A DNA stretch of 64,000 nt from Phymorhynchus buccinoides (Eukaryota > Mollusca > Gastropoda > Neogastropoda > Raphitomidae): assembly GCA_017654935.2 (NCBI GenBank), contig CM065684.1, forward strand, positions 61,750,354-61,814,353, read 5' to 3'. The notes beneath the pieces are model-generated. The model was not told where the DNA came from. It saw nothing but the letters and a program-made list of their open reading frames with translations, and searched no databases. The position numbers were made by a program, and so were the translations under genes. This document shows, piece after piece, positions 11,624-51,336 of this stretch (its first letter is position 1; every line of letters begins with the position of its first letter).

Positions 11624-11696
11624 TCACTCCATTTTGGACATCTCGTACTTGGTGGTCATGAGCTCTTCATCAGAGTCCAGCATGTTGGGCAGTGCC
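11624..11696 (-). CDS. TMEM87: TMEM87 exon 20 with stop codon
   Basis: Encodes [18 protein letters not shown] then MSKME and TGA (11626-11624), matching the human C terminus 'ALPALLDSDEERMITHFERSKME'. Acceptor CCCACAG. A purine-rich (plus strand C/T-rich) array starts within a few bases of the stop and forms the apparent 3' UTR. Confidence 0.97.

Positions 11697-51336: not shown

Follow-up and report, generated by a model that had tools for sequence, protein, structure and literature searches.

Why do the tandem repeats in the introns of one TMEM87A-like gene so often contain a splice junction, and are such repeats anchored at exon edges, favoured there or tolerated there? The gene lies in a stretch of 64,000 nt (C5:61750354-61814353, hereafter the window) of an assembly of 2.12 Gb in 3962 contigs. 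In the original prediction its introns were described as built from tandem repeats anchored on splice junctions, with about fourteen junctions hit by independent duplications that lengthen existing introns and leave decoy sites.

Gene model and paralogue

Pfam matches to GOST_TM (TMEM87) were present on the minus strand of the window and, as a second copy, on contig C9. One window exon matches human TMEM87A in PDB with an E value of 1.2e-17. Both copies were modelled with a custom spliced aligner and a profile of five TMEM87A proteins of mollusc and brachiopod origin. For the window gene, 18 coding exons were retained from the aligner and two very short ones discarded. Exon 5, missed by the automatic model, was then added by hand; its in-frame position, its splice sites and the resemblance of its residues to part of the Babylonia protein P0125 spoke for it. 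The donor of exon 12 was also set by hand, which shortened this exon. The model of the C9 paralogue uses 17 exons, one very short exon having been discarded.

11627..51336, minus strand: TMEM87A-like gene with 19 coding exons (E1-E19) from spliced alignment; it begins with the start codon at 51336, and its stop lies just below 11627
40190..40240, minus strand: exon 5, 51 nt, placed by hand; in frame between AG and GT, its donor inside a 47-bp array

The closest proteins were those of Batillaria (64 %), Physella (61 %) and Lottia (64 %) in a first search, and of Babylonia (67 %), Littorina (65 %) and Nucella (63 %) in a second search with the C9 protein. Judged by such similarities the genome is molluscan and probably that of a caenogastropod; a salmonid origin, considered at first from its general look, was rejected on these grounds. 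COX1 had no match in the whole assembly, from which the mitochondrial genome is probably absent.

Exon lengths are equal between the window gene and the C9 paralogue for E2 and for 12 of the 13 exons E7-E19, the end of E12 being hand-set; E1 and E3 differ in length, and E4-E6 were not matched to C9. The E6 donor is insecurely placed, as the joined reading frame is lost after E6, and this affects one of the 18 donors. At the end of exon 6 lies a coding repeat of 5.3 units of 21 bp (37387-37498); several of these units contain AAGGTCAA, and the true position of the exon 6 donor is uncertain.

Arrays at the splice junctions

Tandem arrays with a period of at least 20 bp occupy 35.5 % of the gene versus 18.5 % of the rest of the window. 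The corresponding share was 11.4 % in a 70-kb stretch of C9 and 0 to 23 % (mean about 6 %) in 13 random 10-kb loci, eight of which contain runs of N. A lenient scan found junction-spanning copies in the neighbouring intron for 15 of the 36 junctions. A stricter scan, which required 75 % identity or more and excluded simple sequence, left 13 (8 donors and 5 acceptors, out of 18 each), and a third implementation gave 12 (7 donors and 5 acceptors). The number of junctions first reported agrees with these three scans, the unit sizes were also right, and of the exon numbers some match the present numbering but not all. Masking of simple repeats before alignment dropped the real E8 and E15 donor junctions and was replaced. 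Periods were partly taken from TRF arrays, while junction copies were identified by alignment to the adjacent intron. Nine hand-listed junction-spanning stretches contain 10,982 of the 13,682 intronic array bases. The arrays and copies at individual junctions, together with one array adjoining the E16 donor, are as follows.

43368..44026, minus strand: E3 donor array, unit of about 154 bp, 4.3 copies; takes in the 3'-terminal 55 nt of exon 3 (44096-43972) together with the GT
42551..42757, minus strand: E4 donor array, 72-bp unit, 2.9 copies; takes in 27 nt of exon 4 (42850-42731)
39875..40195, minus strand: E5 donor array, proximal block, 47-bp unit, 6.8 copies; units carry CAG/GTAGAG
37949..39062, minus strand: E5 donor array, distal block, identical 47-bp unit type, 23.7 copies; 812 bp away from the proximal block
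34000..34376, minus strand: E8 acceptor array, unit of about 133 bp, 2.8 copies; takes in 91 nt of exon 8 (34090-33905); 2 junction copies
32788..33960, minus strand: E8 donor array, unit variable in length, about 85-121 bp, 11 copies; takes in a TC-rich tract and 53-58 nt of exon 8
30218..31178, minus strand: E10 acceptor array, 79-bp unit, 12 copies; takes in 13 nt at the start of exon 10 (30230-30131); 11 junction copies
29034..29096, minus strand: E11 acceptor region, single diverged copy 120 bp upstream, 81 % identity; coordinates derived from the offset
27437..27510, minus strand: E12 acceptor region, single diverged copy 99 bp upstream, 84 % identity; coordinates derived from the offset
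21342..22215, minus strand: E15 donor array, unit variable in length, about 59-89 bp, 15 copies; takes in a triplet tract and 39-43 nt of exon 15 (22276-22173)
19839..20125, minus strand: array adjoining the E16 donor, 58-bp unit, 4.9 copies; ends at the base beside the exon (20196-20126) with essentially no exon bases
13146..18750, minus strand: E17 donor array, 60-bp unit, 93 copies; takes in 15-18 nt of exon 17 (18806-18733)

The E5 donor accounts for 27 junction copies. In the lenient scan the copy-bearing junctions other than the donors of E17, E5, E15 and E8 and the acceptors of E10 and E18 have one to three copies each. The exon overlap of the E10 acceptor array, 13 nt under the strict rule, reaches up to 70 nt in looser alignments. 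Besides the single copies at the E11 and E12 acceptors, weak cases were the E3 acceptor with 9 exon nt, the E7 donor with one copy at 306 bp, the E10 donor with one copy at 401 bp (74 %), the E16 acceptor with one copy (72 %) and the triplet-rich E18 acceptor, whose four copies at 67-71 % failed the stricter rules. In their form, head-to-tail tandem units of about 10-150 bp at regular offsets, the arrays are intronic minisatellites.

Several observations concern single arrays. The 812 bp between the two E5 blocks (39063-39874) are 97 % identical to a stretch at about C9:46396498-46397302 and probably represent a young transposable element that split the E5 array. Past the E15 array a further diverged unit of its type (75-84 %) was found at 21076-21247. 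The first residues of exon 10 (GSFT) differ from the GQSVRGAVIFAE of the paralogue over about 13 nt (30218-30230) that are common to the acceptor array; here the exon edge may have been replaced by sequence from the array.

Relation of the arrays to each other and to the introns

Eight junction-spanning arrays, the two E5 blocks counted as one, were compared against other sequence retrieved from the genome. Four match only themselves. The E8 donor array has its only other match in the homologous exon of the paralogue, the E15 array also matches triplet tracts, the E3 array matches one 41-bp triplet stretch, and the E10 acceptor array (30218-31178) has 54 bp in common with locus L050 on C3 (87-89 %). 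Among these eight arrays no unit was common beyond triplet tracts, so that they do not form a single satellite family. Paralogous exons lead to the same result. The C9 exon homologous to window E15 (C9:46403088-46404442, L010) has about 12 tandem copies, of about 100 bp, of its acceptor with exon sequence on the upstream side, four of the 12 passing the masked rule, while window E15 has its 15 copies at the donor. With this exon carrying its array at the acceptor in C9 and at the donor in the window, the two arrays are independent events. The arrays compared arose independently of each other, as had been proposed from the differing unit sizes.

Tandem duplication of AGGT-containing segments as a route of intron gain offers another reading of the arrays. 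The coding repeat at the end of exon 6 and the E5 units, which are bounded by AG and GT, are of the kind that it would leave. The equal exon lengths in the paralogue place the arrays in pre-existing introns, and no extra intron was found relative to the C9 copy (E4-E6 unmatched). Intron gain is the least probable of the explanations considered here, and the view that existing introns were lengthened held.

Exon edges outside the window

A sample of 40 exons was hand-picked from the 142 PF00069 (protein kinase) matches listed, with 800 bp fetched on each side; it represents one domain family. The picks, taken in list order and about one per cluster, had no stops, a length of 120-300 bp and an open frame no longer than 150 aa and lay on contigs C1-C34; two fitting matches (C17:14770825 and C21:30207004) were passed over. 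Exon edges were predicted from the domain match, the open frame and the splice score, not from transcripts. A partial copy of the exon's own edge was found within 800 bp for 12 of the 40 exons, on 7 donor and 6 acceptor sides; a looser rule gave 15 of 80 junctions at 14 exons. One kinase exon (L034, C12:440755-442591) has partial edge copies on both sides. Repetition of junction edges in introns is real and is also present in other genes.

A further locus was seen among the 127 matches to PF00225 listed in the assembly. Two kinesin-motor matches on one strand at C8:33665121-33665528 lie 264 bp apart with overlapping query ranges (56-105 and 72-105), and by its sequence this pair looks like another donor-side partial exon copy.

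The kinase loci also bear on the concern that the arrays are artefacts of assembly. Long arrays are hard to assemble, and copy numbers such as the 93 at E17 may be off. With identities of 67-98 % to the exon-proximal sequence the copies have diverged too far to be repeated misassemblies, and arrays of this kind recur beside the kinase exons at other loci; that the arrays as such were produced by the assembly is highly improbable.

Excess over chance

Whether exon edges carry more copies than chance depends on the positions with which they are compared. A coverage null sets junctions against intron positions lying anywhere in a duplicated stretch. For the window gene it gave 13 of 36 junctions versus 593 of 1500 intron positions (about 40 %), P 0.72, and for the kinase sample 13 of 80 junctions versus 145 of 789 flank positions; neither is an excess. 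An end-unit null compares junctions with intron positions in the exon-proximal end unit of an array. It was judged fairer, because an array overlaps an exon only by its end unit. In the window gene it gave 8 donors versus 0.64 expected (P 8e-8) and 5 acceptors versus 0.72 (P 6e-4); these P values overstate the case, because the gene was picked by eye for this very feature. When only founding units were counted and recognisable dispersed repeats excluded, 12 junctions were observed versus 2.97 expected, about 4-fold; for copies of at least 85 % identity the numbers were 7 versus 1.68, and for at least 90 % 6 versus 1.40. The comparison of array ends with exon boundaries proposed at the outset thus has two outcomes, no excess by coverage and enrichment by end units.

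Among the 789 control positions in the kinase flanks, 35 lay in donor-like and 30 in acceptor-like end units, corresponding to expectations of about 1.8 and 1.5 junctions. A second implementation gave 12 of 80 junctions versus 3.95 expected, and in 20,000 draws the maximum was 12, with 0.07 % reaching 11; at identities of at least 85 % and 90 % it gave 6 versus 3.2 and 4 versus 1.79. With dispersed repeats excluded and only founding units counted the values were 12 versus 5.46 overall, 6 versus 3.68 at 85 % or more and 4 versus 2.15 at 90 % or more. The C9 paralogue has an array at 1 of 32 junctions versus about 0.8 expected. Kinase exons and C9 paralogue combined yield 13 versus 6.25, about 2-fold, with a Poisson P of 0.012, and 5 versus 2.94 (P 0.17) for copies at least 90 % identical. 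In this sample, a small part of the scan of all genes that had been called for, similar edge arrays recurred, with about a 2-fold excess outside the window.

Position of the junction within the unit

Exon sequence makes up a mean fraction of 0.495 of the unit, and its distribution is compatible with a uniform one (KS P 0.15) over 25 junction cases with an offset of at most 400 bp, three cases with larger offsets being left out. This fraction depends on the extent of the alignment: E10 entered the test with 0.89, whereas the stricter rule leaves it 13 of 79 nt. The splice site does not appear to be a breakpoint, and the breakpoints are apparently not tied to the junction. In this respect the first claim, that the arrays are anchored on splice junctions, was not supported. 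In none of the 28 junction cases within 800 bp did the nearest copy cover the whole exon, so that these are not tandem duplications of whole exons with both splice sites; as a sign of avoidance this says little, because most units are shorter than the exons. Remainders of the arrays were rejected as evidence of microhomology, since expansion leaves them uninterpretable.

The density of first units was 0.15-0.16 at the predicted exon edge, about 0.10 at 100-200 bp and 0.03 beyond 200 bp. End-unit density is raised across the 100-200 bp beside the exon with no sharp peak at the junction itself. These profiles bear on the possibility that tandem duplications start preferentially at exon edges as mutational hot spots, for instance where transcription or co-transcriptional splicing gives rise to nicks or R-loops. 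The density of first units is highest near predicted exon edges, and the roughly 4-fold excess of the window gene is also found among copies at least 90 % identical, as a hot spot would predict. Against it stand the lack of a sharp peak at the junction and a junction position compatible with a uniform distribution along the unit; young copies outside the window show no clear excess, and the C9 paralogue is near expectation. We consider a mutational hot spot unlikely.

Decoy splice sites

The analysis of conservation at the copied sites covered 15 arrays, each with three or more intronic copies; the triplet-rich E18 acceptor had been left out beforehand. The GT or AG of the decoys was identical to the real site in 98.1 % versus 90.5-91.0 % for neighbouring column pairs (P 0.0035-0.0088), a difference that is inflated, because the real site hardly changes while elsewhere both sides drift. 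By the fraction mutated among the copies themselves the values were 1.9 % versus 5.6-6.0 % (P 0.017-0.028). The whole range of P values, 0.0035-0.028, spans three column ranges and two measures; the sample is small, the copies of one array cannot be treated as independent, and in the kinase loci the site taken was the one with the best splice score. Among sites outside the test, the E18 acceptor array kept the AG in 0 of 5 copies, the donor of L034 kept the GT in 0 of 2 (the site is perhaps misplaced), and the E7 donor and the E12 acceptor kept theirs in 0 of 1 each. The decoys in the tested arrays are mostly not being disabled. At the E17 donor 87 of the 93 copies score at least as high as the real site in a simple splice matrix. 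The CAG/GTAGAG of the E5 units resembles the motif of a recursive splice site, and we take it to be a candidate by sequence.

Selection might keep arrays with a splice site if the decoys were useful, as recursive or buffering sites or as regulators of the splicing rate. The better conservation of GT and AG and the likeness of the E5 units to recursive sites speak for such a use; the four sites that lost their dinucleotides speak against it, and the limits of the test just given weaken its support. A function of the decoys is in our judgement very unlikely. Decoy sites were indeed left behind, mostly intact, as predicted; of the suggestion that the duplications are tolerated or favoured, toleration is compatible with the data, and for favour there is nothing except this mild retention.

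Probable tolerance of duplication at exon edges

We regard it as probable that random tandem duplication frequently crosses exon edges, is tolerated there and stays visible for longer, which produces the excess at junctions. Stretches of about 50-180 bp would be duplicated in tandem at a high rate in transcribed DNA, with breakpoints indifferent to exon edges. Where a duplication crosses an edge, the exon-proximal copy would preserve the exon and its splice site, and the intronic copy, which has one splice site only, would not be recognisable as an exon of its own. It is established for splicing in general that a partial copy with a single splice site is ignored through exon definition, and the same would apply here. 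Splicing would continue at the site that yields the shortest exon. Duplications of this kind would be nearly neutral and could later expand like minisatellites, giving a longer intron with many decoys. The copy held in the exon would be fixed by coding selection and could not be lost, so the array would remain recognisable for longer than purely intronic ones and a modest excess at junctions would follow. Neutrality, exon definition as the ground of tolerance and a longer visible lifetime behind the excess are what we infer; the about 2-fold excess outside the window may be no larger than the persistence advantage expected of an array with one conserved copy.

A junction position compatible with uniform, the partial nature of the copies, the end-unit density raised beside the exon and not at the junction alone, and the lack of a shared unit fit random duplication tolerated at exon edges. 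Both sides of exons are affected, with 8 donors and 5 acceptors in the window gene and 7 and 6 in the kinases. Two results stand against it: the about 4-fold excess of the window gene, a gene picked by eye, persists in young copies, where longer visibility does not explain it, and GT and AG are kept better than the neighbouring columns, which neutrality does not predict. In a bolder reading exon edges would be preferred starts of duplication in this lineage and the decoys would in addition be kept by selection, so that introns in general would grow in a manner linked to splicing, with arrays of intact, partly used sites; this combination we hold to be quite unlikely. As alternatives to tolerated duplication, a hot spot or selection on decoys retains a minority chance.

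Comparison with known systems

Intronic minisatellites or VNTRs consist of head-to-tail units of about 20-150 bp within introns. The snail arrays share this arrangement, and their unit adds a part of a coding exon and a working splice site.

Repeats of coding sequence in introns are also known from irak3 of rainbow trout, where the 5'-most 15-17 nt of exon 5 are repeated four times directly upstream and intron 10 contains a short piece of exon 9 with core splice sites on either side (PMC6763605). In this the trout gene is like the snail gene; unlike the present analysis, the trout report, in the part available, concerns one fish gene pair and contains no test against chance (PMC6763605). Tandem duplication has been described as a source of introns, with cases in a potato RdRp gene and in ATP2A1 (PMC4974935). 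As in the snail, a short tandem duplication there gives an extra splice site; in those cases, as far as the available part of the source goes, the result is a new intron, whereas in the snail existing introns become longer and the extra sites, judged from sequence, are apparently unused (PMC4974935). Tandem repeats in the size range of minisatellites occur in the first introns of earthworm metallothionein genes, and one clone shows duplications of the fourth exon, their purpose being given as unknown in the available part of the report (PMC12783039). Judged by titles and the beginnings of abstracts, no systematic study of junction-spanning arrays was recognised in the open literature.

Short tandem duplications across exon edges that grow into intronic arrays are a real habit of this genome beyond TMEM87A. 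The count of edge copies is simple and can be run on any genome. The arrays are natural experiments on site choice, in which nearly identical sites compete at set distances. If about one third of exons carry edge copies, as 12 of the 40 kinase exons do, then intron growth, gene prediction and the choice of splice sites would all have to deal with strong decoys.
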